64,000 bases of DNA from Jiella marina (lineage in GTDB: Bacteria > Pseudomonadota > Alphaproteobacteria > Rhizobiales > Rhizobiaceae). The notes beneath the pieces were generated by a model, which was not told the DNA's origin, did no database searches, and worked only from the letters and a program-made list of their open reading frames with translations. Of the stretch, positions 1 to 60,711 are shown in pieces. The position numbers were made by a program, and so were the translations under genes. Every line of letters starts with the position of its first letter. Positions within the stretch are counted from its first letter, which is position 1. The stretch covers positions 124,001 to 188,000 of the forward strand of contig NZ_JAKQZG010000004.1 of assembly GCF_024359545.1 (NCBI RefSeq). Reading direction: 5' to 3'.

Positions 1-1803
1 GCGGAGCCGTCCAGGGCGCCGATGACCGCGCAGCAGGGCGGCGTTTCCGAACTGATCCTTCCCTATTCTCCCTATGTGTTCGACCTCGCCGTGGCGTCAG
101 CGAGAAGCGTCGCCGAGATCACCTATCGCGGCCGACGCTTCGATCCGGTGACACGTGCGCTCGTCGTGACGGGGCTCGAAGTCCGGCGCGGACCGGTGCA
201 TTTCAGAATAGGCCAGATGCGCGTCGGCGCGGAGCGCACGATCCTCGACGACGTGGTCATCGACACGCGCCGGGTGCCGCTCGAGCCCGAGGTGCGGCAG
301 GTTCTTCAGCGTCTCGACCGGGAAATTGTGAACGGGGACGTCGCAATCGGCATCGACGCCAACGGACCTGCGGCCGACTACGTGATTCAGGCGACGGCCA
401 ATCTCGAGGGTATCGGTGCACTCGATCTTGATGCCGATCTCCGCGGCTTTCACATTCTTGTGCCGATCGACGAATTCGACGAGGGCATGCGCGACGAGCC
501 GTTTGCCCGCAGGCGCGGTGACGAGCCGGAGGTCGTCGGCCGGATTGCGTCGGCGAGTCTCGGCTTCACCGACGCCGGACTGACTTCGGCGCTCTACGAG
601 GTCCTCGGCGGGGCCCAGGGCTTGAGCCCCGAGGCCGCACGGAACACGGCGTCGGCCTTGGCCGGGATCGCAGTCGCCAGCATCTTCAAGGATATGCCCG
701 GCGGCAGCACGCCGGAACTGAACGAAGCCGCGCGGCGGTGGTCGGCCGGGATTCAGGCCTTTCTGCGCGAGCCGGGCCGCATCGCGGTCTCCCTGCGTCC
801 GGCCGAGCCCTTCGATATCGCCCGTCTCACCGACGGTATCGTCGAGGCGGCGGATATCGTCGCGCTCAATCCCTCGGTGGTCGAAGGCGTTCCGGCGGGT
901 GTGCGGCTGCTCGATCCGGGCGTTCTGATGCCGAAGCCGGACGCACCGCTTTCGCAGCTGCTCGCCATCGCCGATACGCTGATCGCCGGGCGCGGCACGC
1001 CCCAGAATGTCGAGCGTGCGGTGGCGCTGGTGATGCCGGCCGCGATCGACGGCAACCGCGCGGCCGTCGGCCTGCTTGCCAAGGCGATCGCCATCGACCC
1101 GCATGTCAGCGTGCCGCAGGATCGCCTGCGCGCTGCCTATGTGGCGCTCGATCTCGCCACGGCGGAGGGACTTCCGAATGCCGCCGAAAGCCGCCTGGCG
1201 ATCGGCCGGCGCCTCAGCCCCAGCGAAATCGTCGGTGCCGAAGACGAAGCCGTGGCGATCTGGCGCAAGACACCGATCGGCACACAGCAGCGCCAGGCCG
1301 AAGTGGAGGCGTTTCGCAATCGCGACTGGAAGGTCATCCGGCGTCTCGCCTACGCCTATTATGAAGGCGTGGACATGCCGCGCAACATCATGCGCGCCTA
1401 TGGCTGGGCCTCGATCGCGGCGGCGGGGGGTGACCAGATCGCAGCGGCGTTCCGGGACGAGCTGACGCGGGCGGCCGGTAGCGGCCGCCTCGTGCTGCCG
1501 CTGGACCGGGCGCGGGAGGCCACGAACGATCTCTGGGCGATCATCGTCGAGGAGGGTCCCGACAGGGGGACAGGGAGTTCGGAGGCTCCGGCCGAGGCAG
1601 AGCCGGCTGAAGGGAATGCGGCAACGGATGCGCCGGATGCCGCAGCAGCGGGGCCGGCAGCTGGGGTGCCACCCATTCCGGATGCTCCATCATCGGCGGA
1701 CGCGACCGTGTCGCAACCAGCCGAGGACGAGCGAAGCGCATTGACCGAGGGGCAACCGACCGGCCCGGCGCCGCAGCCCGTTCAGCCGGAGACCGTGCAG
1801 TAG
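1..1803 (+). CDS. Hypothetical protein with Sel1-like C-terminal segment (5' end outside window)
   Basis: The reading frame is open from the first base and the first ATG (position 22) is not followed by a signal peptide, so the true start probably lies before the window. At least 593 residues are visible. Most of the protein is not recognised. Near residues 435-475 there is a Sel1/TPR-like segment (AYAYYEGVDMPRN followed by AYGWASIAAAGG), a helical repeat type used for protein-protein contacts. The last 80 residues are rich in Ala, Pro, Glu and Asp and look disordered. It ends 191 bp before rplU, which has its own promoter. It may be a periplasmic or envelope protein, but that is inference. 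The function is unknown. Confidence 0.6.
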   Translation, partial: AEPSRAPMTAQQGGVSELILPYSPYVFDLAVASARSVAEITYRGRRFDPVTRALVVTGLEVRRGPVHFRIGQMRVGAERTILDDVVIDTRRVPLEPEVRQVLQRLDREIVNGDVAIGIDANGPAADYVIQATANLEGIGALDLDADLRGFHILVPIDEFDEGMRDEPFARRRGDEPEVVGRIASASLGFTDAGLTSALYEVLGGAQGLSPEAARNTASALAGIAVASIFKDMPGGSTPELNEAARRWSAGIQAFLREPGRIAVSLRPAEPFDIARLTDGIVEAADIVALNPSVVEGVPAGVRLLDPGVLMPKPDAPLSQLLAIADTLIAGRGTPQNVERAVALVMPAAIDGNRAAVGLLAKAIAIDPHVSVPQDRLRAAYVALDLATAEGLPNAAESRLAIGRRLSPSEIVGAEDEAVAIWRKTPIGTQQRQAEVEAFRNRDWKVIRRLAYAYYEGVDMPRNIMRAYGWASIAAAGGDQIAAAFRDELTRAAGSGRLVLPLDRAREATNDLWAIIVEEGPDRGTGSSEAPAEAEPAEGNAATDAPDAAAAGPAAGVPPIPDAPSSADATVSQPAEDERSALTEGQPTGPAPQPVQPETVQ

Positions 1804-46511: not shown

Positions 46512-48029
<1,518 letters not shown>

Positions 48030-48048
48030 GACTGCCTCCCGAGATCAC

Positions 48049-48065
48049 CACCGCGTCATGCGGTG
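48049..48065 (-). promoter_or_regulatory. Inverted repeat just upstream of the aldehyde dehydrogenase gene
   Basis: CACCGC (48049-48054) and GCGGTG (48060-48065) form an inverted repeat with a 5-bp spacer, 20 bp before the start codon at 48029. It is a candidate operator or leader hairpin. Confidence 0.35.
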
Positions 48066-48116
48066 TGTCGATCCTTGATGGCGATCGGGACCGGGCGTGT
48101 CATCGGGGGGCGGGGG

Positions 48117-48132
48117 AGGGCGGTTCCGCCCT
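48117..48132 (-). promoter_or_regulatory. 16-bp palindrome between the regulator and aldehyde dehydrogenase genes
   Basis: AGGGCGG (48117-48123) and CCGCCCT (48126-48132) form a perfect inverted repeat separated by 2 bp. It lies 35 bp after the regulator gene's stop and could be either a 3' hairpin or a binding site. Confidence 0.4.
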
Positions 48133-48167
48133 GTCTCAGAACTGCGACGTTCGCGGCGATGAAACCG

Positions 48168-49136
48168 TCATCGCGCCGCCTTGATGCCGTATCGGGCGAG
48201 CTTGCGATAGAGCGTCGCGCGGGAGACACCGAGGTCGCGGGCGGCGGCGGTGACGTTGCCGTCGGCCCTGACCAGGGCGCGTTCGAGGACCGAGCGTTCG
48301 GCCTCCTTGAGGTCGAGGGAGGGGTCGGAATGCTGGCCGAAGAGATCGGCGGCCGGCAGCGGCCGCGTGAAGGGCTCGGCCCCCAGGCCGAAGATCTGCC
48401 GGGCCGAGCGGGTGGCGCCGATCACGAGGTCGTCCTTGTCGATGGCAAACAGGGCGCAGGGCGCCTTGTTGTTCGTCGGTGCGACGACGATGCGGGCCTT
48501 GGGATAAGCGAGACGGAAATGCTCGGCCTCGATCTTGCGGGCCGCGTCACCGACGGCCATGGCGATCAGATTGACGAAGCCTTCGGTCAGGTCGGCGCGG
48601 CAGGAGGAGACGTCGAGCGCCGCGGCGAGCCGGCCCTCATGGTCGAAAATCGGCGCGGTCGTGCAGGAAAGCGCCGTGTTGCGGGTGTGGAAATGCTGGT
48701 CGCGATGGATGGTCAGCGAGCGCCGTTCGACGAGACACGTCCCGATGCCGTTCGTGCCTTCGCTCTCCTCGCTCCAGACCGTCCCGAGCCACAGCCCCCA
48801 GTCCCGGAACGTTTCGTCGTCGGCGTCGGCCCCGCGGCGCTCGACGGGAACGCCATCGCGATCGGCCAGCAGGACGCAGCAGCCGATGCCGCCGACCGCC
48901 AGATAGAGCCTGTCGAGGCTCGCCTGGGCGGCGTGGATCAGCGCGCCAGAGCGCTCGCGCGCCAGACTGAGCTCCATGTCGCTCAGACGATGTGGCGGCT
49001 TGTGTTCGGCCGGGTCGAGATGGTGCAGGGCCGCCGACCGCTGCCAAGAGGCCACGAGGGCGGATTTCGCCGCGCCATGCGATTCGATGGCCGACTGAAT
49101 CCTGTCGGCATGCTCGGCCACGACATTTGTGCTCAA
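48168..49136 (-). CDS. AcoR-like regulator: GAF domain plus Fis-type HTH, without AAA+ domain
   Basis: The product (322 residues) begins at TTG 49136, which has GGGAGGCGG 6 nt upstream. It carries an N-terminal SxWxRS segment (SALVASWQRSAALHHLDP) typical of AcoR-type regulators, a GAF sensor domain (about 65-200, IGCCVLLADRDGVPVERR, EESEGTNGIGTCLVERR), a possible PAS-like segment, and a C-terminal Fis-type helix-turn-helix (GNVTAAARDLGVSRATLYRK). The sigma54-activating AAA+ domain (GAFTGA) of full AcoR is absent, so it likely regulates through sigma70 promoters. It is probably the regulator of the adjacent aldehyde dehydrogenase. Confidence 0.85.
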   Translation of the reverse strand: MSTNVVAEHADRIQSAIESHGAAKSALVASWQRSAALHHLDPAEHKPPHRLSDMELSLARERSGALIHAAQASLDRLYLAVGGIGCCVLLADRDGVPVERRGADADDETFRDWGLWLGTVWSEESEGTNGIGTCLVERRSLTIHRDQHFHTRNTALSCTTAPIFDHEGRLAAALDVSSCRADLTEGFVNLIAMAVGDAARKIEAEHFRLAYPKARIVVAPTNNKAPCALFAIDKDDLVIGATRSARQIFGLGAEPFTRPLPAADLFGQHSDPSLDLKEAERSVLERALVRADGNVTAAARDLGVSRATLYRKLARYGIKAAR

Positions 49137-49561
49137 TTTCCGCCTCCCGAACCATCGACCGCACGCTCCCGAGGCGTCTTCTGCGCCTTCCGTGCGGTTG
49201 GGGATGGCCGGGGCCGGCATCGATCGCGGGGCGGCTGGAAGCCGCACGTGACGGATCGCATATGGACTGCGACCACCCGACGCTACGATAGCGCAACTTC
49301 GCAGCCGGGAAAATGATCGAGATCATGCCATATAAGAAGACCTCGGGCGATCGGCAGACAGGCCCGCTCTCGAAATGCCGGGGAGGGCATGCACGGCGTT
49401 GCCGCAGGCCGTTGCCGATCTCTCAACCGTGATGGCGGAATCGATCCGACAGTCCGAAGTCATTTTGACGTTTACGTAAAAGTCCGATATTATTTCGGAC
49501 AAATGGCAACCGGCAGGGCGGCGTCCTCATTGCCCCCATGCCAGCGCGAGACGGAGCTCCC
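49137..49561. other. Divergent regulatory gap between the AcoR-like regulator and fadE
   Basis: This 425-bp gap has no gene. It holds the fadE promoter and its palindromes (49465-49500) and a further perfect inverted repeat ATGATC (49313-49318) / GATCAT (49321-49326) of TGAT-N4-ATCA form, reminiscent of CRP/FNR-family sites. Confidence 0.5.
49465..49500 (+). promoter_or_regulatory. Promoter of the fad operon with two palindromes
   Basis: TTGACG (49465-49470) and TATTAT (49488-49493) are spaced by exactly 17 bp. The spacer begins with the palindrome TTTACGTAAA (49471-49480), and an inverted repeat GTCCGA (49482-49487) / TCGGAC (49495-49500) brackets the -10 hexamer. The layout suggests control by one or two regulators. 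Confidence 0.65.
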
Positions 49562-51838
49562 ATGTCTTTCCGCAAGAACAAGCTCACCCGCCCGATCTTC
49601 AAATGGGCCAAGGGCGTCATGCCCGCGATCTCGAAGACGGAAGAAGAGGCGATCAGCGCCGGCACCGTCTGGTGGGACGGCGAATTGTTCTCCGGCGACC
49701 CGGACTGGAACAAGCTGCTGGCGACGCCCCCGGCGCGGCTCTCTCCGGAAGAGCAGGCCTTCATGGACGGGCCGGTCAACGAATTGTGCGGCATGATCGA
49801 CGAATGGAAGATCATGTCCCAGGATCGCGACCTGCCGCCGGAAGTCTGGCAGTTCCTGCGCGAGAAGAAGTTCTTCGGCATGATCATCCCGAAGGAGTTC
49901 GGCGGGCTCGGCTTCTCCAACACGGCCCATTCGGAAATCGTGCGCAAGGTCTCGTCGACCTCGGTCGTGGCGGGCGTGACCGTCATGGTGCCGAACTCGC
50001 TCGGGCCGGGCGAACTCATGCTGCATTTCGGCACGAAGGAGCAGCAGGACTACTGGCTGCCGCGCCTCGCCGACGGGCGCGAAATTCCCTGCTTCGGCCT
50101 GACCTCGCCGGATGCGGGCTCGGACGCCGCTGCAATGACCGATACCGGTGTCGTCGAGTATGGCGAGCATGAGGGCAAGCGCGTTCTCGGCATCAGACTG
50201 AACTTCCACAAGCGCTACATCACGCTCGGCCCGGTCGCGACCGTCATGGGCCTCGCTTTCAAGATGTTCGATCCCGAGAACCATCTCGGCAAGGGCGAGA
50301 ATCTCGGCATCACCGTTGCGCTCCTGCCGACCTCGACGCCGGGCGTGAGCCACGGGGAGCGGCACATCCCGCTCAACACCTATTTCATGAACGGTCCGCT
50401 GACCGGCGAGGACGTCTTCATCCCGCTCGAATGGATTCTCGGCGGGCCCGAGCAGATCGGCCAGGGCTGGACCATGCTGATGACGGCGCTAGCCGCGGGC
50501 CGTTCCATCTCGCTGCCGTCCCAGTCGGCCGCGGCTGCGGCCTACTGTGCCCGCACCACCGGCGCCTATGCTCGGGTCCGCACGCAGTTCGGCGTGCCGA
50601 TCGGCATGTTCGAGGGCATCCAGCAGCCGCTCGCGGACATCGCGGCCAACGCCTATCTGATCGACGCCGCGCGACGGCTGACCGTGGCGGCCCTTGATCA
50701 GGGTCACAAGCCCTCCGTCCTCTCCGCCATCATGAAGGCGCACGCCACCTACCGGATGCGTGAAAGCGTCGAGCGCGCCATGGACATCCACGGCGGCAAG
50801 GCGATCATCGAGGGCGAGAAGAACTACATGGCGCATATGTACCGCTCGGTGCCGATCGGCATCACGGTGGAAGGCGCCAATATCCTGACCCGCAATCTGA
50901 TGATCTTCGGCCAGGGCGCGATCCGGGCCCATCCCTTCATGCTGAAGGAGATGCTGGCCCTGTCCGACGAGGACAAGGAGCGCGGACTGGCCGATTTCGA
51001 CAAGCACTTCTGGGCCCATGTCGGCCATTCCATGAAGAATGCCTGGCGCACCTTCGCGCGCGGCTGGACAGGTGGTCTTGCGGCGCCCGCGCCGAAGGAT
51101 GCCGCCTTTACCGGTCACTGGCGCCAGCTGTCGCGCTATGCGGCCGCCTTCGCGCTGCTTGCCGACCTGTCGCTCCTGACGCTCGGCGGTGCGCTGAAGC
51201 GCAAGGAGATGCTCTCGGCGCGTCTCGGCGACATCCTGTCCGAGCTCTATCTTCTCGGCGCTGTCCTCAAGCGCTTCGAAGTGGAAGGTCGGCCCGAGGC
51301 CGATCGGCCGCTGATCGAGTTCATCATGGAGAAGGGCTATTGCCGGCTCGGCATCGCTTTCAACGGCGTGCTCGACAATCTGCCGGCCCGCTGGGCGGCG
51401 GTGCTGGTGCGCTTCCTCGCCTTCCCGCTCGGCGTGCCCTATGAGGAGCCGTCGGACGAACTGACCAGCGAAGTCGCGGCGATCATGATGCGCCCGTCCT
51501 CGCAGCGCGACCGGATCACGCCGGACATCTATCTGGGCGACCGTCACGCCGAGCATCCGGTCAAGGATCTGGAGCACGCGTTCGAACTCGTCTGCGACGC
51601 GGCGCCCATCGAGAAGAAGATGCGCGAGGCGAAAATCAAGGACCCTATCGCCGCCCGCGAGAAGGGCGTGATTTCCGAAGCCGAGTTCGATCGCCTCGAA
51701 AAGGTGAAGGCGGCCGTCGCCAAGGTGGTTGCCGTCGACGCCTATGCGGCCGATATCGTCTCCCCGATCGCCGGGCAGCATGACCAGCCCTATGAGCCCG
51801 GCGGACAACCCATGCATTCGCGCGAGGCTGCCGAGTGA
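49562..51838 (+). CDS. fadE: Acyl-CoA dehydrogenase FadE
   Basis: FadE catalyses the first step of fatty acid beta-oxidation, alpha,beta-desaturation of acyl-CoA with FAD. The product (758 residues from ATG 49562) is of the long proteobacterial FadE type. It has the acyl-CoA dehydrogenase core (about 75-460: PKEFGGLGFSNTAHS, FGLTSPDAGSD, YMAHMYRSVPIGITVEGAN with the probable catalytic Glu near residue 437), followed by a C-terminal DUF1974 region. A GGAG ribosome binding site lies just before the ATG; the frame is open eight codons further. It overlaps the thiolase gene by 4 nt. Confidence 0.95.
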   Translation: MSFRKNKLTRPIFKWAKGVMPAISKTEEEAISAGTVWWDGELFSGDPDWNKLLATPPARLSPEEQAFMDGPVNELCGMIDEWKIMSQDRDLPPEVWQFLREKKFFGMIIPKEFGGLGFSNTAHSEIVRKVSSTSVVAGVTVMVPNSLGPGELMLHFGTKEQQDYWLPRLADGREIPCFGLTSPDAGSDAAAMTDTGVVEYGEHEGKRVLGIRLNFHKRYITLGPVATVMGLAFKMFDPENHLGKGENLGITVALLPTSTPGVSHGERHIPLNTYFMNGPLTGEDVFIPLEWILGGPEQIGQGWTMLMTALAAGRSISLPSQSAAAAAYCARTTGAYARVRTQFGVPIGMFEGIQQPLADIAANAYLIDAARRLTVAALDQGHKPSVLSAIMKAHATYRMRESVERAMDIHGGKAIIEGEKNYMAHMYRSVPIGITVEGANILTRNLMIFGQGAIRAHPFMLKEMLALSDEDKERGLADFDKHFWAHVGHSMKNAWRTFARGWTGGLAAPAPKDAAFTGHWRQLSRYAAAFALLADLSLLTLGGALKRKEMLSARLGDILSELYLLGAVLKRFEVEGRPEADRPLIEFIMEKGYCRLGIAFNGVLDNLPARWAAVLVRFLAFPLGVPYEEPSDELTSEVAAIMMRPSSQRDRITPDIYLGDRHAEHPVKDLEHAFELVCDAAPIEKKMREAKIKDPIAAREKGVISEAEFDRLEKVKAAVAKVVAVDAYAADIVSPIAGQHDQPYEPGGQPMHSREAAE

Positions 51839-53124
51839 CTTCAGCAAGACCCGTCTATCTCGTCGACGGCGCCCGCACGCCTTTCATCAAGGCGCGCGGG
51901 CGGCCCGGACCTTTCACACCAGTGGATCTGGCGGTCCAGTGCGGGCGTCCGCTGCTTCTGCGGCAGGACTTCCCGACCGAGGCGATCGATCTCGTCGTGC
52001 TTGGCTGCGTCAACGTCATCGCCGACGAGATGAACCCCGCCCGGGTCGCAGCGCTGCGGCTTGGGATCTCCGATGAGGTTCCGGCCTTTACGGTGCAGAT
52101 CAATTGCGGCTCCGGCATGCAGTCTCTCGATACAGCGTTCCGCTACATCGAGCGCGGCACGCATGAGATCGTTCTTGCCGGCGGGGCCGAGGCGCTCAGC
52201 CACTCGCCGCTGGTGCTGCGGCGGGGCGCCGTCGAATGGTTCGCGCGCCTGGCGCGGGCCAAGACGGCGGGTGACCGGGCCAAGGCCTTCACCCAGCTGA
52301 AGCCGAACTACTTCAAGCCAGTGATCGGCCTGGAACGTGGTCTCACCGACCCGATCACCGACCTCAACATGGGCCAGACGGCGGAAATCCTCGCCCATCT
52401 CTTCGACGTCTCCCGGCGCGACGCTGATGCCTACGCCGTCGAGAGCCATCGACGCCTCGGCGAGGCGACCGAGAAGGGCTGGCTGAAGAACGAGATGCCG
52501 CCGGCAGTCGCCCGCGACGGTCGCGCCTATGATCACGACGACGGCATCCGGCCGGGCACCACGGTCAAGGATCTCGCCAAGCTGAGGCCCGTCTTCGAAC
52601 GGCCCTATGGCAAGGTGACGCCCGGCAACGCTTCGCAGATCACCGACGGCGCCTGCTGGAACGTTCTCGCTTCGGAAGAGGCGGTCGAGAAATACGGCCT
52701 GAAGCCGCTCGCACGCATCGTCGATTCCGACTGGGGCGGTCTTGACCCGTCGATCATGGGTCTCGGACCCGTGGCGTCGGTCGCGCCGATCCTGAAGCGC
52801 CAGGACATGGCGGTGGCGGATGTCGATCTCTGGGAGCTGAACGAGGCCTTTGCCGCGCAGGTGCTTTCCTGCGTCGCCGCGCTCGACCAGCCCGACGTCG
52901 CAGACGGTGTGCTCGGCCTTGAAGGCCGCGGCGGGCGGATCGACCACGACAAGCTGAACGTCGATGGCGGGGCGATCGCGCTCGGTCATCCGGTCGGCAC
53001 ATCCGGCAACCGCATCACGCTGCATCTCGCCAATACGCTGAAGCGTCTCGGCAAGACGCGTGGCATCGCCACTCAGTGTATCGGCGGCGGTCAGGGCGGC
53101 GCGATGCTGCTGGAAGCGGCCTGA
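51835..53124 (+). CDS. fadI: Acetyl-CoA C-acetyltransferase (FadA/FadI-like thiolase)
   Basis: This thiolase cleaves 3-ketoacyl-CoA, releasing acetyl-CoA. Its 429 residues have the nucleophilic Cys near residue 91 (QINCGSGMQSLD), the His of GGAIALGHPVGTSGNR and the second Cys in ATQCIGGGQGG. The PVYLVDGARTPFIKARG N-terminus is typical. It starts at GTG 51835 inside the fadE stop and is followed 58 bp later by fadJ. The FadI label is chosen because the partner is a FadJ-type multifunctional protein; FadA cannot be excluded. Confidence 0.94.
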   Translation: MTSARPVYLVDGARTPFIKARGRPGPFTPVDLAVQCGRPLLLRQDFPTEAIDLVVLGCVNVIADEMNPARVAALRLGISDEVPAFTVQINCGSGMQSLDTAFRYIERGTHEIVLAGGAEALSHSPLVLRRGAVEWFARLARAKTAGDRAKAFTQLKPNYFKPVIGLERGLTDPITDLNMGQTAEILAHLFDVSRRDADAYAVESHRRLGEATEKGWLKNEMPPAVARDGRAYDHDDGIRPGTTVKDLAKLRPVFERPYGKVTPGNASQITDGACWNVLASEEAVEKYGLKPLARIVDSDWGGLDPSIMGLGPVASVAPILKRQDMAVADVDLWELNEAFAAQVLSCVAALDQPDVADGVLGLEGRGGRIDHDKLNVDGGAIALGHPVGTSGNRITLHLANTLKRLGKTRGIATQCIGGGQGGAMLLEAA

Positions 53125-53182
53125 GGCGCGGCCACTTTCGACGAACAAAACCACGGAACGCGAAAAGCGACGGACCAAGAAC

Positions 53183-55285
53183 ATGGGCAGGATGCTGAAC
53201 GCGCTCTCCTCGCGCGCTCTCGAACTGGGGCCGGCACGCTCCGCCGAGACGACGGGCCATTTTCGGTCCGCGACCGACGACAACAACGTCGCTTGGCTGA
53301 TCCTCGATCGGCAGGACAAATCGGTGAATACCGTCGATCGCAGCGTGCTGGAGGAACTCGCCAGCCATATCGAGCGTCTGGAGCGCGAGAAGCCGGCGGC
53401 GATCGTCATCCGCTCCGGCAAGAAGGCGGGGTTCGCGGCCGGCGCGGACATCAACCAGTTCGTCGGTGCCTCGAAGGAGGAGATCCGCTCGTCCCTTAAG
53501 GACGCACACCAGGTTCTTGACCGGCTCGCGGCGCTGAAGACGCGGACCGTTGCCGTCATCCACGGTCACTGCCTTGGCGCAGGACTGGAACTCGCACTCG
53601 CCTGTGATCGCCGGATTGCGGTCTCCGACGCGACGCTCGGCTTTCCCGAGGTCATGCTTGGCCTTCATCCAGGTCTTGGCGGCACGTTCCGCGCGCCCGC
53701 CGTCGCCGATCCGATCGAGGCGATGACGATGATGCTGACCGGCCGTTCGATGCCGGCAAAGCGTGCGAAGTCCATCGGTCTCGTCGACGCGGTTGTCGAG
53801 GAGCGGCATGTGGCGTCCGCCGTCGAAGCGGCGTTCTATGGCGACATCCGCCCGAAGTCCCATTCCATGGCCGGCAAGGCCATGGGGTTCAAGCCGGCGA
53901 GGCAGGTTGCCGCGCGCACCATGCGCAAAAAGACCGCCGAGAAGGCCGCGCCTGAAAACTACCCGGCTCCCTACAAGCTGATCGACCTCTGGGAAGCCCA
54001 TGGCGGCGACGAAAAGGCGATGCAGGCGGCCGAGATCGACAGTTTCGCCGAACTGATCGAGACGCCCACCTCGAAGAATCTGGTCCGGGTCTTCTTCCTG
54101 CGCGAGAAGATGAAGGGCCTGAAGGACGGTTCGTCCGGCGTGAAGCACCTGCATGTGGTCGGTGCCGGCGCCATGGGCGGTGAAATCGCCGCCTGGGCGG
54201 CCGGCCAGGGCTTCCGGGTAACCCTCGGCGATATCCAGCTTGCGCCGATCGGCAAGGCGATTGCGAGCGCCTCTAAGATGTTGGAACGGGCCTTGAAGGA
54301 CCCCTTGAAGGTTCGCGACGCTCTCGACCGCCTGATCCCTGACCCGGACGGGAACGGCATTGCCCACGCCGACCTCGTCATCGAGGCCGCGCCTGAGAAG
54401 ATCGACCTCAAGCACAAGATCTATGCGGACATCGAGCCGAAGCTGAAGGAAGGGGCGCTGCTGGCGACGAACACGTCGGCCCTGCCGCTCGCTGATCTGG
54501 CGTCCGGGTTGAAGGACCCGTCGCGCTTCGTCGGGCTGCACTTCTTCAATCCCGTCTCGCGCATGCAGCTCGTCGAGATCGTCCGGCACGACCGGATCAG
54601 TTCCGAGACCGAGCGCCGTGCCACGGCGTTTGCGGCCGAAATCTCCCGGCTTCCCGCGCCGCTCAATTCCGCGCCCGGCTTCCTCGTCAATCGCGCTTTG
54701 ACGCCGTACATGGCCGAGGCGCTGAAGCTCGTCGACGAGGGCATTCCGAAGGAGCGGATCGACAAGCGGGCCGAGGATTTTGGCATGCCCATGGGCCCGA
54801 TCGAGCTTTCCGATCAGGTCGGGCTCGACATCGCCCTCGACGTCGCAACCTCGCTACGAGAGCGGCTGGGAACCGACACACTGCCCGAGGCGCCGGCCTG
54901 GCTGACGCGCATGGTCGAGGAGAAGCGTCTGGGTCGCAAGACCGGGGCGGGGCTCTACGATTATGACGACGACGGCAAGCCGAAGAAGCGGGACGTCAAG
55001 GCGCTGCCGGACGATTCCAAGGACGATCCGGACCTGCTCGACCGGCTGATCCTGCCCATGCTCAATGCCGTCGTTGCCTGCCTCGCCGAAGGCGTGATCG
55101 AGGACCAAGAGGTCACCGACGGCGCGATGATCTTCGGCACCGGCTTCGCGCCCTTCCGCGGCGGCCCGGTGCACTATGCTCGCGAGCGCGGTGTGGACGG
55201 CATCGTCGCGCGCATGAACGAGCTCGCCAAGAAGCATGGGCCCCGCTTCCGGCCCCACGAAGGCTGGTCGCGGCTCAAGGGTTGA
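53183..55285 (+). CDS. fadJ: 3-hydroxyacyl-CoA dehydrogenase / enoyl-CoA hydratase (FadJ-type)
   Basis: The 700-residue bifunctional alpha subunit hydrates enoyl-CoA and oxidises the 3-hydroxyacyl-CoA. The hydratase domain (about 25-200) has SGKKAGFAAGADINQF, HGHCLGAGLELALACD and PEVMLGLHPGLGGTF. The NAD-binding domain begins near residue 320 (HVVGAGAMGGEIAAWAAGQG), and the dehydrogenase signature LHFFNPVSRMQLVEIV follows. Two C-terminal helical domains complete the family layout. ATG 53183 has a weak ribosome binding site; translation may depend on coupling. The stop overlaps the next start (TGATG). Confidence 0.95.
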   Translation: MGRMLNALSSRALELGPARSAETTGHFRSATDDNNVAWLILDRQDKSVNTVDRSVLEELASHIERLEREKPAAIVIRSGKKAGFAAGADINQFVGASKEEIRSSLKDAHQVLDRLAALKTRTVAVIHGHCLGAGLELALACDRRIAVSDATLGFPEVMLGLHPGLGGTFRAPAVADPIEAMTMMLTGRSMPAKRAKSIGLVDAVVEERHVASAVEAAFYGDIRPKSHSMAGKAMGFKPARQVAARTMRKKTAEKAAPENYPAPYKLIDLWEAHGGDEKAMQAAEIDSFAELIETPTSKNLVRVFFLREKMKGLKDGSSGVKHLHVVGAGAMGGEIAAWAAGQGFRVTLGDIQLAPIGKAIASASKMLERALKDPLKVRDALDRLIPDPDGNGIAHADLVIEAAPEKIDLKHKIYADIEPKLKEGALLATNTSALPLADLASGLKDPSRFVGLHFFNPVSRMQLVEIVRHDRISSETERRATAFAAEISRLPAPLNSAPGFLVNRALTPYMAEALKLVDEGIPKERIDKRAEDFGMPMGPIELSDQVGLDIALDVATSLRERLGTDTLPEAPAWLTRMVEEKRLGRKTGAGLYDYDDDGKPKKRDVKALPDDSKDDPDLLDRLILPMLNAVVACLAEGVIEDQEVTDGAMIFGTGFAPFRGGPVHYARERGVDGIVARMNELAKKHGPRFRPHEGWSRLKG

Positions 55286-57129
55286 TGACGCGCCGTTTCG
55301 AGGATGCCGACGCGGTCGCACAGGCGATCGTCGAGCGAGTGGGGCACAAGATCGTCCTTGCTCTGCCGTTGGGGCTGGGCAAGGGCAATCACGTCGCCAA
55401 CGCGCTGTTCCGCCTTGCGAAGGCGAACACCGACATCGACCTCAAGATCTTCACCGCCCTGTCGCTCGATCCGCCCTCGGGCGGCGACAATCTGGCCGGG
55501 CGCTTCGCCGGGCCGCTTGCCGAACGCCTCTATGACGGCGTCACCCGGCTCGACTATGTCGAGGCTCGCAAGCGCAATGCCCTGCCGCCCAATGTTCGGG
55601 TCGTAGAGTTCTTCCTGCAGGCCGGCGCGCTGATCGGCAATCGCACGGCGCAAATGGATTACATCTCGGCGAACTATACCCACGCTGCCCGCTATCTTCT
55701 GGAGAGCGGGGTCAACGTGATCGCCCAGATGGTCTCGCCTTCGTCCGATCGCTCTGAGTTCTCGCTCGCCTCCAACACCGACATGACGCTGGATCTGTTG
55801 TCCGAAATCGCGGCGCGGCGGCAGACGGCGGAGCCGGCTCTCCTCGTCGGTGAAGCCAACGTCAATCTGCCCTTCATGACCGGCGCTGCGGCACTGCCCG
55901 CCGACCATTTCGATATGATCCTGGAAGGGGAGAGCGTCGAGCATTCCCGGCTGTTCTCGATTCCCAAGCAGCCGATTTCCACCACCGAACATGCGATCGG
56001 CCTCCATTGCGCCGGCCTGGTCAAGGATGGCGGAACCATCCAGATCGGCATCGGCGGACTGGGCAATGCGATCGCCAATGCGCTCATCCTGCGCCACCGT
56101 GATCCGGAGACGTTTCGCGCGTGCCTCGGGGCGCTTGGCAACTGGCCGGGGACGATCGCGCCGCAGACCGGGTCCTTCGAGGAAGGCCTCTACGGCCTGT
56201 CGGAAATGTTCGTCGACCCGCTTTTGCAGCTCTTCGAGGCCGGCATCCTGAAGCGCCCCGCCTCCGACGGGAAGATCCTGCATGGCGGTTTCTTCATCGG
56301 GCCGGAATCCTTCTATGAGCGGCTGCGGGAGATGGACGAGGCCGAGCGCGATCGCTTGTCCATGCGCGAGATATCCTTCATCAACGATCTGCCCAAGGCC
56401 GATGCGCTGCGCCATGCCGCCGACCGGCGCGACGCCCGCTTCTTCAATTCCGCGATGATCGCCACCGCGCTCGGCACCATCTGCTCCGATCAACTCGACA
56501 GCGGCCAGGTCGTCTCCGGCGTCGGCGGTCAGTACAATTTCGTGGCCCAGGCTTTCGAACTCGACGGCGCGCGCTCGGTCCTGTCGCTCCCGGCGACGCG
56601 CAATGGCGGCGCGCAGTCGAACATTCGCTGGTCCTACGGCCACACGACGGTGCCACGCCATCTGAAGGACCTCGTCGTCACCGAATATGGCATCGCCGAT
56701 CTGCGGGGACGCACGGATCGCGACACGGTGGCCGCAATGATCGGCATTGCCGACCGCTCCGCCCAGGGCGGTCTGATCGACAAGGCGGTCGCCGCTGGTA
56801 AGCTCGAGAAGGGTTTCGCGCCGCAAGGAGACAATCGCCCCGAACGGCTCAAGCAAGCGCTCGCGCCCTTCGCCGAACGGCTTCCCGCCTATCCGTTCGG
56901 GACTGATCTGACCGAGGAGGAACAGATCCTCGCGCCGGCGCTCGGAAAGCTGAAAACGGTCCGGAACGACCGCTTGGCGCTGGCGAAGCTCGCCGCGAAG
57001 GGACTGTTTGCCACACCGACGGATCGTGAAGAGCGCGCCCTGCGCCGCATGCGCCTGATGGAGCCGAAATCGCTGAAGGAGCGGGGATTGCGGGCGATCC
57101 TGCTCCAGGCACTGCGGGCGACGGGATGA
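55285..57129 (+). CDS. Acetyl-CoA hydrolase/CoA-transferase family protein
   Basis: This 614-residue protein belongs to the acetyl-CoA hydrolase/4-hydroxybutyrate CoA-transferase family. It shows the N-terminal LPLGLGKGNHVANAL, then QIGIGGLGNAIANALILRH and the C-terminal GGQYNFVAQAFELDGARSV and NIRWSYGHTTVPRHLKD. Such enzymes move CoA between short-chain acids or release it through a glutamyl-CoA intermediate. It starts at ATG 55285, overlapping the fadJ stop by one base, so it is the fourth gene of the beta-oxidation operon. It might recycle CoA when acetyl-CoA accumulates (inference). Confidence 0.88.
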   Translation: MTRRFEDADAVAQAIVERVGHKIVLALPLGLGKGNHVANALFRLAKANTDIDLKIFTALSLDPPSGGDNLAGRFAGPLAERLYDGVTRLDYVEARKRNALPPNVRVVEFFLQAGALIGNRTAQMDYISANYTHAARYLLESGVNVIAQMVSPSSDRSEFSLASNTDMTLDLLSEIAARRQTAEPALLVGEANVNLPFMTGAAALPADHFDMILEGESVEHSRLFSIPKQPISTTEHAIGLHCAGLVKDGGTIQIGIGGLGNAIANALILRHRDPETFRACLGALGNWPGTIAPQTGSFEEGLYGLSEMFVDPLLQLFEAGILKRPASDGKILHGGFFIGPESFYERLREMDEAERDRLSMREISFINDLPKADALRHAADRRDARFFNSAMIATALGTICSDQLDSGQVVSGVGGQYNFVAQAFELDGARSVLSLPATRNGGAQSNIRWSYGHTTVPRHLKDLVVTEYGIADLRGRTDRDTVAAMIGIADRSAQGGLIDKAVAAGKLEKGFAPQGDNRPERLKQALAPFAERLPAYPFGTDLTEEEQILAPALGKLKTVRNDRLALAKLAAKGLFATPTDREERALRRMRLMEPKSLKERGLRAILLQALRATG

Positions 57130-57188: not shown

Positions 57189-58031
57189 TCAGAGCGAAAC
57201 GCAGGTGCTTTCCTGCTCGCCGAGCATGGTGCCGCCCAGGCGGATACGATCGCCGGGTTTCAGGAAGCGCGGCGGATCGTAGGAGAGGCCGACACCGGCG
57301 GGCGTGCCGGTGAGGATCACGTCGCCGGGCTCGAGCCGCATGAAGCGCGAGATGTAGGAGATCAGATAGGGCACCTTGAAGATCATGTCCCTTGTGGTCC
57401 CGATCTGCTGGCGCGTGCGGTTGACGTCGAGCCACAACTCGATGGAGTCGAGGTCGGGCAATTCGTCCGGCGTGACCAGATAGGGGCCGAGCGGACAGAA
57501 GGTGTCGTGGGACTTGCCCTTGGTCCACTGGCCGCCACGCTGAAGCTGGAAGCTGCGCTCGGAGATGTCGTTGGCGAGGCAGTAGCCAGCGACGGACCGC
57601 TCAGCCTCCTCGATGCTGATATATTTTGCGACGCGACCGATGACGACGGCGAGTTCCACGCCCCAGTCGACGCGCCCGGCAAGCCTCGGGATCTCGATCG
57701 GGTCGTTCGGCCCACAGACGGCGGTGGATGCCTTCAGGAAGATGGTGGGCTCGGGATTGACGCGGAAGCCGGCGAGCTTGGCGCTGTCATGGTAGTTGGG
57801 GCCGACGCCGACCACCTTGCCGATGCGGTCGACCGGTTTGCACAGGCGCGTCCCTTCGGCCACCACGGGCAGGCCCGCGGGGTCGATCGCGGCCAACGCG
57901 GCCAGACGGTCCGGGTCGAGTGCGGCGCCTTCGAGGGCCGTTACGTGGTCGGAGAGATCCCTTATCCTACCCTCGGCATCGACGAGCCCGGGTTTCTCCC
58001 TGCCCCGATCGCCGTACCGAACAAGCCGCAT
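57189..58031 (-). CDS. Fumarylacetoacetate hydrolase family protein with altered active site
   Basis: The product (280 residues) has the FAH C-terminal fold: RVDWGVELAVVIG, then GYCLANDISERSFQ, then LILTGTPAGVGL-type sequence and PGDRIRLGGTMLGEQ. FAHD1-type enzymes carry an E-x-E metal motif and a His-Glu dyad (NYxDHxxE). Here the first Glu is Gly (WGVEL) and the dyad region reads NYHDSAKL, so both dyad positions are changed. The later Asp ligand (NDIS) is kept. It may be a different hydrolase or isomerase, or an inactive paralogue. The ATG (58031) follows AAGGAGA. It is convergent with the fad operon. Confidence 0.85.
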   Translation of the reverse strand: MRLVRYGDRGREKPGLVDAEGRIRDLSDHVTALEGAALDPDRLAALAAIDPAGLPVVAEGTRLCKPVDRIGKVVGVGPNYHDSAKLAGFRVNPEPTIFLKASTAVCGPNDPIEIPRLAGRVDWGVELAVVIGRVAKYISIEEAERSVAGYCLANDISERSFQLQRGGQWTKGKSHDTFCPLGPYLVTPDELPDLDSIELWLDVNRTRQQIGTTRDMIFKVPYLISYISRFMRLEPGDVILTGTPAGVGLSYDPPRFLKPGDRIRLGGTMLGEQESTCVSL

Positions 58032-58162
58032 CGAAATCTCCTTCAGCGTTTTGGGCTGGAATGGCGAAACGGCCCGCCCGGTTCCTCGCCTTTGCCCGAC
58101 TATCGGATAAAGCTCGGCCAAAACGCGCCGCCAAGAACGTTCCCATCCATGGAGGAAACCCC

Positions 58163-59977
58163 ATGCCGCAACCGCCGGTGAAGGACATTGCATTCACCCT
58201 GAAGACGATAGCCGGTCTGGACGCGGCGATCGACGAGGGCTTGTTTCCCGAACTGACACCCGACCTCGTGGATGCCGTCCTCGAGGAGGCGGCGCGCTTT
58301 GCGAGCGAGCGCATGGCGCCACTCGACGCGATCGGTGATGCAGAGGGCGCGCGGATCGAAAACGGCGTGGTCACGACGCCCACGGGCTGGCGGGACCTCT
58401 ACCAGGACTGGATCGCTGGCGGCTGGAACGCCCTCGCCGGCCCGGCGGACCACGGAGGTCAGGAACTGCCGACGGCGTTGTCCGCTGCCGTCTTCGAGAT
58501 GTGGAACCACGCCTCCATCGCCTTCACCCTGGCGCCGCTGCTGACGGTGGGTGCCGTCGAGGCGCTGACGGTGCACGGATCCGAGCAACTGAAGGCAGCC
58601 TATCTCGAAAAGCTTGTGACCGGCGAGTGGACGGGCACGATGAATCTGACCGAGCCGCAGGCCGGATCCGACCTCGCGGCACTTCGCACCCGCGCCGAAC
58701 GAGCCGGTGACGGCAGCTACCGCATCTTCGGCCAGAAGATCTACATCACTTATGGCGAGCACGACATGGCCGATAACATCGTCCATCTCGTCCTCGCCAG
58801 GCTTCCCGATGCGCCGGCCGGGGTGAAGGGGATCTCGCTCTTCCTCGTGCCGAAATTCCTGCCCGAGGAGAGCGGCGCGCCCGGCCGCCGCAACGACGTC
58901 GTTTGCCATTCGATCGAACACAAGCTCGGCATTCACGGCTCTCCCACCTGCACGATGCTTTTCGGCGAGGGAGTGGGCGAGACCGGCGAGGCCGGCGCTG
59001 TCGGCTATCTGGTGGGCGAGGAAAACCGCGGTCTCGCCTGCATGTTCACGATGATGAACAATGCCCGCCTTCTGGTCGGTATCGAAGGCGTCGGCGTTGC
59101 CGATGCGGCCTATGAGAAGGCGCTCGCCTATGCCCGTGAGCGCCGCCAGGGCCGCGCGACGCGGCTCGCACCATCCGCCGAGAAGTCGGGGAGCATGAGC
59201 CCGATCGTCGCGCATCCGGACGTGGCGCGCATGCTCTTGACGATGAAGGGCATGACTGACGCCGCCCGTGCCATCGCCTATAGCTGCGCCATCGCCATCG
59301 ATCGGGCGAAGGCCTATGCCGGCAGGGATGCGGACAAGGCTCGGACGTGGCAGGAGCGGGCGAACCTCCTGACGCCCGTCGCCAAGGCGTTTTCGAGCGA
59401 TATGGCGGTGGAGGTCGCGTCCATCGGAATCCAGGTCCATGGCGGCATGGGCTTCGTCGAGGAGACCGGGGCGGCGAAGCTGCTGCGCGATGCGCGCATC
59501 ACGCCGATCTACGAAGGCACCAACGGCATCCAGGCGATCGATCTCGTGGTCCGAAAGATCACCCAGTCTGGCGGCGAAACGACCCGCGCGCTGTTCGCGG
59601 AATGGGATGAGACGGTCGCGGAACTTTCCCGCCGCAACGCTCCGGAATTTGGCGATGCAGCCCCGCAATTGCAGGCCGCCATGGCCGATCTGCGCGAGGC
59701 GACCGAGCATCTGCTGTCGGAACTGCGGGAGGGCCGGAACGAAGCGGCCCTTTCGGGCGCGACGCCCTATCTCAAGCTCTTTGGCCTCGCTGCCGGAGGT
59801 GCGCTCCTTGCCAAGGGCGCGTTGGCGGATGGCGCCGGCCACGAGCGGATCGCGCTGATGCGGTATTTCGCAGAGAACCTTACCGTCGAGACCGGCGGTT
59901 TGAAGCGCAAGGTGATGTCGGGCGCGGCGAGCCTTGCCGCTGCTCACGACATCCTGCTGTCGGAGATGGCGCGATGA
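58163..59977 (+). CDS. Acyl-CoA dehydrogenase (DmdC-like)
   Basis: This 604-residue flavoenzyme has the architecture of 3-methylmercaptopropionyl-CoA dehydrogenase (DmdC) and related long acyl-CoA dehydrogenases. It has an N-terminal extension (MPQPPVKDIAFTLKTIAGLD), the FAD-binding MNLTEPQAGSDLAALRT, the GIHGSPTCTM loop, the catalytic Glu in ITPIYEGTNGIQAIDLV, and a C-terminal alpha domain. GGAGGAAA lies 7 nt before ATG 58163. It overlaps the enoyl-CoA hydratase by 4 nt. The natural substrate cannot be fixed; paralogues act on medium-chain acyl-CoAs as well as on dimethylsulfoniopropionate products. Confidence 0.9.
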   Translation: MPQPPVKDIAFTLKTIAGLDAAIDEGLFPELTPDLVDAVLEEAARFASERMAPLDAIGDAEGARIENGVVTTPTGWRDLYQDWIAGGWNALAGPADHGGQELPTALSAAVFEMWNHASIAFTLAPLLTVGAVEALTVHGSEQLKAAYLEKLVTGEWTGTMNLTEPQAGSDLAALRTRAERAGDGSYRIFGQKIYITYGEHDMADNIVHLVLARLPDAPAGVKGISLFLVPKFLPEESGAPGRRNDVVCHSIEHKLGIHGSPTCTMLFGEGVGETGEAGAVGYLVGEENRGLACMFTMMNNARLLVGIEGVGVADAAYEKALAYARERRQGRATRLAPSAEKSGSMSPIVAHPDVARMLLTMKGMTDAARAIAYSCAIAIDRAKAYAGRDADKARTWQERANLLTPVAKAFSSDMAVEVASIGIQVHGGMGFVEETGAAKLLRDARITPIYEGTNGIQAIDLVVRKITQSGGETTRALFAEWDETVAELSRRNAPEFGDAAPQLQAAMADLREATEHLLSELREGRNEAALSGATPYLKLFGLAAGGALLAKGALADGAGHERIALMRYFAENLTVETGGLKRKVMSGAASLAAAHDILLSEMAR

Positions 59978-60711
59978 GTGGCCTGGTTGCGGTGACCGCC
60001 GAGGGCGGTGTCGTCACGATCCGGATGAACCGTCCCGAGAAGAAGAACGCGATCAATCGGGCGATGTATCGCGAGATGAAGGAAGCGCTCGAAGCCGCGG
60101 CGCAGGATGACGCAGTCCGCGCCATCGTGTTCGCGGGCGTTCCGGGCGCGTTCTGTGCCGGCAACGACATCGCCGATTTCATGGCGATCGCCGAGGGTGG
60201 TTCGCTGCCTGGCGAGGTGCGCGACTTTCTCCTCCTCGTGGCGCAATATCCCAAGCCACTCGTCGCGGCGCTGGACGGGCTTGCGATCGGCATCGGCACG
60301 ACCCTCCTCATGCATTGCGATCTGGCTTATGCCACCCCGAATTCGGTGTTTCGCACGCCTTTCCTTGATCTCGGCGTGACGCCTGAGGCTGCTTCCAGCC
60401 TGATCGCGCCGCGGATGATGGGCGACCAGCGCGCCTTCGCGCTGCTGGTTCTGGGCGAGGCTTTCGACGCGCAGAGCGCGCGCGAAGCCGGACTGATCTA
60501 CAAGGTGAGCGAGGATTGCGAGGCGGCGGCAATGGAGGCGGCGCGCGCCCTTGCCAAGAAGCCGCCCGAGGCCCTGAGCATTGCTCGCGAACTGGTTCGT
60601 GGACCGCGTACCGACGTTGTGGCGACGATCGACCGGGAGCTCGAGATCTTCTCAGAGCGTCTGCGCTCGAAAGAGGCACGCGCCGCATTCGCGGCTTTTC
60701 TCTCCCGGTAG
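59974..60711 (+). CDS. Enoyl-CoA hydratase/isomerase family protein
   Basis: This crotonase-fold protein has 245 residues. It has the oxyanion-hole segments GVPGAFCAGNDIADF and ALDGLAIGIGTTLLMHCD. The helix RTPFLDLGVTPEAASSLIAP (PF-x-LGVTPE-x-x-SS) resembles Delta3-Delta2-enoyl-CoA isomerases rather than classical hydratases, which have the Glu pair. It overlaps the DmdC-like dehydrogenase, so the two form a second small acyl-CoA operon, perhaps for unsaturated fatty acids (inference). Confidence 0.9.
   Translation: MSGLVAVTAEGGVVTIRMNRPEKKNAINRAMYREMKEALEAAAQDDAVRAIVFAGVPGAFCAGNDIADFMAIAEGGSLPGEVRDFLLLVAQYPKPLVAALDGLAIGIGTTLLMHCDLAYATPNSVFRTPFLDLGVTPEAASSLIAPRMMGDQRAFALLVLGEAFDAQSAREAGLIYKVSEDCEAAAMEAARALAKKPPEALSIARELVRGPRTDVVATIDRELEIFSERLRSKEARAAFAAFLSR

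Follow-up and report, generated by a model that had tools for sequence, protein, structure and literature searches.

Operators of MerR proteins are 16-bp dyads with a 6-4-6 geometry, and the promoters that these proteins activate have spacers of 19-20 bp; the sites of LiuR are ACGT-based dyads. In 2009, Kazakov et al. reportedly predicted that, in 22 species of alphaproteobacteria, fatty-acid degradation is governed by LiuR orthologues. As far as the available text of PMC5343134 goes, LiuR regulons are found in 103 genomes of 15 groups (its Table 1), and the regulators of fatty-acid degradation that it names are FadR, PsrA and FadP. Among the matches listed from the open-licence literature, no title dealt with fad genes of this group under a MerR regulator, and absence there does not mean absence from print.

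The window (the whole stretch of Jiella marina DNA that was analysed, 64,000 nucleotides) contains a fadE operon whose promoter, judged from sequence comparison, quite likely carries one MerR-type operator, with the LiuR-like protein MerR-B as its likely controller, acting by repression within a fatty-acid degradation regulon. The promoter elements and the genes around them are as follows (coordinates of the window).

49465-49470, + strand: -35 hexamer TTGACG
49488-49493, + strand: -10 hexamer TATTAT, after a spacer of 17 bp; genus-invariant in its first two bases (TA) only
49465-49480, + strand: predicted LiuR-like 16-bp dyad operator TTGACG-TTTA-CGTAAA (6-4-6), left arm identical with the -35 hexamer, invariant in 10/10 genus promoters
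49471-49480, no strand assigned: palindrome TTTACGTAAA, contained in the 16-bp dyad
49482-49500, no strand assigned: inverted repeat GTCCGA-TATTATT-TCGGAC (spacer N7) around the -10 box, in this genome only, probably a chance occurrence
49562-51838, + strand: fadE-type acyl-CoA dehydrogenase, 758 aa (ACDH_C, 4.6e-93; NF007000, 1074.5 bits against a cut-off of 600)
51835-53124, + strand: acetyl-CoA acyltransferase (thiolase)
53060-55285, + strand: FadJ/FadB-like bifunctional hydratase/3-hydroxyacyl-CoA dehydrogenase (ORF limits; below the equivalog cut-offs)
55282-57129, + strand: acetyl-CoA hydrolase/transferase-like protein
48168-49247, - strand: regulator with GAF and Fis-type HTH domains, divergent from fadE (ORF limits; the true start may be a TTG near 49136)
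57189-58193, - strand: FAA-hydrolase gene, next after the operon and convergent with it

An earlier note on this DNA had described a near-consensus promoter (TTGACG, 17 bp, TATTAT), the palindrome TTTACGTAAA adjoining its -35 box and the repeat GTCCGA-N7-TCGGAC around its -10 box, and all three are present as described, the promoter on the + strand. The promoter has 10/12 consensus matches with its 17-bp spacer; promoter-like sites in 49140-49600 numbered one, shuffled sequences averaging 0.2, and a sample of 235,780 bases of the genome, both strands included, held a single match to the pattern TTGACN-16..18-TANNAT, which the fadE site fits. A scan of 48900-49700 against Rfam gave no family at or above its gathering score. 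Both the promoter and the longer ACGT dyad stand above the chance level; for the second inverted repeat this is not clear. The view that a beta-oxidation operon stands here behind a strong sigma70-type promoter was borne out. The dyad ends 81 bp upstream of fadE; the true start of the FadJ/FadB-like ORF is probably further in, and the acetyl-CoA hydrolase/transferase-like gene is probably the last of the operon.

That no fatty-acid regulator gene adjoins the operon is correct, but the divergent GAF-Fis regulator gene does; no homologue of this regulator was found at E<=1e-50 in the other nine genus genomes. Together with a gene for an ExaC-type acetaldehyde dehydrogenase, it occupies 46512-49247 (- strand) directly upstream of fadE, and because of this lack of homologues the pair may be an acquired cassette. 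Beyond the FAA-hydrolase gene, a second acyl-CoA dehydrogenase gene and an enoyl-CoA hydratase gene were observed (57920-60711, + strand), and this second beta-oxidation pair is without the dyad operator at <=2 mismatches. A terminator-like call on the minus strand (49500-49482; 1 versus 0.3 per shuffle) lies upstream of the divergent gene and was given no weight.

Genome-wide searches were performed on the 5.08-Mb genome of 41 contigs (labelled G000). Read together with its left flank, TTTACGTAAA becomes the dyad TTGACG-TTTA-CGTAAA, which contains one internal mismatch. Three exact matches to the 16-bp form TTKACGTNNACGTMAA were found in the genome, where base composition predicts 0.013, and these precede fadE, fadA and a gene for a short-chain dehydrogenase/reductase (SDR). 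The 10-mer TTTACGTAAA alone occurs in 3 copies, against 1.7 expected in the same way; as a motif by itself it was rejected, the copy at C1:237255 being without the left dyad half. The predicted operator is larger than the 10-mer that had been proposed, namely the 16-bp dyad including the -35 box. TTGACGTTTACGTAAA stands before fadE in 10/10 Jiella genomes. When the ten promoters were aligned without gaps, a block of 19 columns (49464-49482) was invariant, followed by five variable columns and then by the invariant TA of the -10 box at the same spacing; the other invariant columns over the 100 aligned were just three, scattered ones, the DNA flanking the dyad being scrambled. The absence of both palindromes upstream of fadE in close relatives had been named as a refutation; this one is present throughout the genus and in some genomes beyond.

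For the comparison outside the genus, relatives were grouped by the tool's own kinship, in which the family group f1 comprised 37 genomes and probably extends beyond Aurantimonadaceae. Scoring of the region upstream of fadE covered 22 of 26 loci (G001 was read from locus L074 instead, and G045, G052 and G054, at contig edges, were left out). Of the 13 regions outside the genus, five had the dyad with 0-1 mismatches, one with 2, and seven had 4-6 mismatches (L026-L029, L033, L034 and L036), where the dyad is absent. One mismatch was found in G031 and G035, and two in G030. The remaining three sites come from other families: that of G060 is a perfect TTGACGTTAACGTCAA, followed 17 bp later by TATTTT, that of G038 shows one mismatch with TATTTA, and that of G041 shows one mismatch with no -10 box at that distance.

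Within the genome, 0-1 mismatches were found at five places, which lie before the fadE, fadA, SDR, alpha/beta hydrolase and DUF2147 genes. At <=2 mismatches there were 42 forward places against 24 for a reversed control. Among the 37 places with exactly 2 mismatches, C5:61049 (beside merR-A, see below) and C23:242744 (fadL) were followed up, and C2:64179, C13:9191 and C1:675182 were viewed briefly. The order merR-B, exact operator, fadA was kept in 10/10 genus genomes. The SDR gene has the exact operator in all nine genus genomes looked at (G000 and eight others; G001 was left out), ending 15-23 bp before the start codon. The operator of fadD, with one mismatch in 9/10 genus genomes, ends 16-19 bp before the start codon; the exception is the fadD of the window's own genome, which lacks the operator (best match, 5 mismatches). 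The protein of this gene (C2:167098-168759, locus L256) also shows the lowest similarity to the query among the ten (76%). For fadL, the operator was found with 1-2 mismatches in 10/10 genus genomes at a distance to the gene that differs between species; these sites are weak and looser, <=2 mismatches being found in 3.1% of random 530-bp windows of the genome, a control in which some true sites are included. The alpha/beta hydrolase gene has the operator in G000 and three other genomes fetched, and the DUF2147 gene in G000 and four others. The name FadL comes from Pfam (38.8 bits against 29.7) and the name FadD from an NCBIfam match, whose score of 861.3 bits falls slightly short of the subfamily cut-off (869).

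The genome has seven matches to MerR_1 (Pfam), and two of them lie beside such operators.

C6:20282-20749: MerR-B, LiuR-like MerR protein (MerR_1), next to fadA and fadB, on a contig other than that of fadE
C5:60599-60997 (locus L117): MerR-A, a second LiuR-like paralogue, with a similar site before its own gene

The expectation that the controller is encoded elsewhere is supported by the MerR gene which adjoins fadA on a different contig. The proposed resemblance of the ACGT palindrome to the sites of LiuR regulators of the MerR family also gained support. From these sequence relationships, the reader of the fadE operator is probably MerR-B. Within the genus its sites read TTGACGTNNACGTCAA; at four loci of Aurantimonas (L157, L158, L159 and L210) the operator beside merR-B is TTGACGTTTACGTAAAAG, identical with the fadE operator. 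The operator (<=1 mismatch) is present at 48 of 80 named MerR-B-like loci, 42 of them with fadA; the other 32 lack it at that threshold, and fadA is present in 10 of these. MerR-B relatives of >=65% identity occur in 13/37 f1 genomes, the same 13 that have the fadE operator (<=2 mismatches), and the operator was not found in the other three f1 genomes that have fadE; this match inside f1 is weakened because common descent confounds it. The three genomes outside f1 with a fadE site have LiuR-like MerR genes of just 39-45% identity, and the fadE of G019, G022 and G029 has no site despite LiuR-like MerR genes in these genomes. A third LiuR-like MerR protein (45-53% identity to MerR-B) is present in nine genus members.

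The surroundings of merR-B differ between groups. At 24 loci outside the genus (L100, L101, L106, L108, L110, L114, L192, L194-L199, L201, L203, L205-L209, L214, L215, L217 and L225), the operator that goes with the merR-B-like gene is 22 bp long and close to TTGACGTTTACG(G/C)AAACGTCAA, with 0-2 mismatches; this form consists of two overlapping 16-mers with three ACG units and replaces the 16-bp form of Jiella and Aurantimonas. In Aureimonas (L178, L179, L181-L189 and L213), the merR-B genes are without fadA in the fetched locus, and no operator was found near them, the best matches having 4-5 mismatches; the regulator would thus have moved or changed its job there.

The site class of MerR-A bears on the identity of the reader. 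MerR-A sites form a class of their own, TTGACTTTTACGTAA, in 28 of 31 rows (L117 and its orthologues L118-L146; two of the three misses belong to one genome), which differs from the fadE core by one letter, so that MerR-A could bind there as well or instead. The right half of the fadE site, ACGTAAAAG, resembles MerR-A's own site and is kept in 10/10 genus promoters, against ACGTCAA in the fadA operator; the left half (TTGACGT) resembles that of MerR-B. That the operator is read mainly by MerR-A, or by the two proteins in competition, is nevertheless unlikely: MerR-A matches (E<=1e-20; best identity 43-100%) occur in 35/37 f1 genomes, including those without the fadE site, ACTT, which MerR-A sites carry on their left side, is absent from all ten genus fadE sites, and the operators next to merR-B in the four Aurantimonas loci equal that of fadE exactly. 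A composite operator, with one half-site for each of the two LiuR-like paralogues and dual control through the single 16-bp dyad fused to the -35 box, appears rather unlikely as well; it would accord with fast operator change in this family, in which merR-B-like loci of other Rhizobiales often have the 22-bp triple-unit form in place of the 16-bp form of Jiella and Aurantimonas. As for the mode of action, membership in the MerR family would fit a classical activator that untwists the promoter. The layout of promoters activated in this way, with a 19-20 bp spacer and the dyad between the -35 and -10 boxes, was not found at fadE, where the spacer is 17 bp and the left arm of the dyad is the -35 box, so that the promoter needs no untwisting. 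A dyad that covers the -35 box, or that stands 15-23 bp before the start codon as at fadD and the SDR gene, points to repression. LiuR is also described as a repressor in the text available from PMC3223726, and activation by MerR-B seems very unlikely.

The earlier note had also read the two palindromes as stacked operators for dual control. The second palindrome is neither conserved nor recurrent: it was not found in the other nine genus fadE promoters (1/10 including its own) or in any of the 13 fadE upstream regions outside the genus, and the motif search of the genome gave one exact copy, near the 0.59 expected from base composition. Perfect inverted repeats with arms of 6 and spacers of 0-12 occur in 10.6%, 21% and 36% of random 36-, 60- and 100-bp windows of this genome (1,500 windows per length), and in 1.2%, 2.2% and 4.4%, respectively, when the spacer is exactly 7. 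GTCCGA-N7-TCGGAC is probably due to chance and without a regulatory part. It could have been a recent, species-specific second operator, for instance for the GAF-Fis regulator: the repeat brackets the -10 box exactly, repeat and GAF-Fis gene are both private to this genome among the ten of the genus, and a genome search at <=1 mismatch gave 22 places, the reversed pattern giving 13. In the surroundings (about 1.5 kb) of 11 GAF-Fis homologues, however, no exact copy was found, the best match having 2 mismatches at the edge of locus L272 and the others 3-4, and with the single exact genome copy and the frequency of such repeats in random windows we regard dual control of this kind as highly improbable. 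Among the one-mismatch places, the two with AT-rich spacers (C16:17922 and 19947) were viewed and the other 19 left out; as operators the two were rejected, lying inside ORFs that flank a gene which by eye looks like a DNA cytosine methyltransferase. Should transcription begin about 7 bases downstream of the -10 box, the repeat would form no hairpin in the fadE RNA. Taken alone, a perfect inverted repeat of 6 bp close to a promoter is poor evidence, because roughly one in three random 100-bp windows of the genome contains such a repeat.

Under repression by MerR-B, a dimer of this protein on the dyad would cover the -35 element and block RNA polymerase, and a fatty-acid-derived acyl-CoA would release it from the operator. 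Binding and repression are inferred here, and acyl-CoA is suggested as the signal by analogy with fatty-acid repressors in general. The same operator before fadA, fadL, the SDR gene and, in relatives, fadD would join these genes with the fadE operon in one fatty-acid degradation regulon. What had been described as a dual-palindrome promoter thereby becomes a testable regulon of one small MerR protein and one 16-bp site, with fadE, fadA, fadL, the SDR gene and (in relatives) fadD as its members across the genus. It also suggests a route of fatty-acid degradation control in this genome, for which the search for a gamma-type FadR was negative.

Compared with known systems, FadR (GntR family) and PsrA and FadP (TetR family) do the same job, the control of fatty-acid degradation, according to the part of PMC5343134 used here, and belong to protein families unrelated to MerR. 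No FadR of the GntR type scored above the family cut-off in the genome (best, 33.8 bits against 249.2). The classical MerR and CueR activators are related to MerR-B by the sequence of the DNA-binding region and share the 16-bp dyad of 6-4-6 geometry; the present sites differ in the 17-bp spacer and in the position of the dyad over the -35 box or beside the start codon, and repression is the likelier mode here. The LiuR regulons of Proteobacteria in RegPrecise are alike in the small MerR-family protein, the ACGT-based dyad and the catabolic acyl-CoA genes as targets. LiuR differs in its task, since it regulates the use of branched-chain amino acids in the accessible portions of PMC3223726 and PMC5343134, and the targets here are fadE, fadA, fadL and (in relatives) fadD. 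Two traits of LiuR-type control were found at the present sites, namely an ACGT-based 16-bp dyad before acyl-CoA catabolic genes and a MerR-family gene linked to the same operator. If the 2009 prediction stands, the regulon of the fadE dyad would be a new case of known LiuR-type control.
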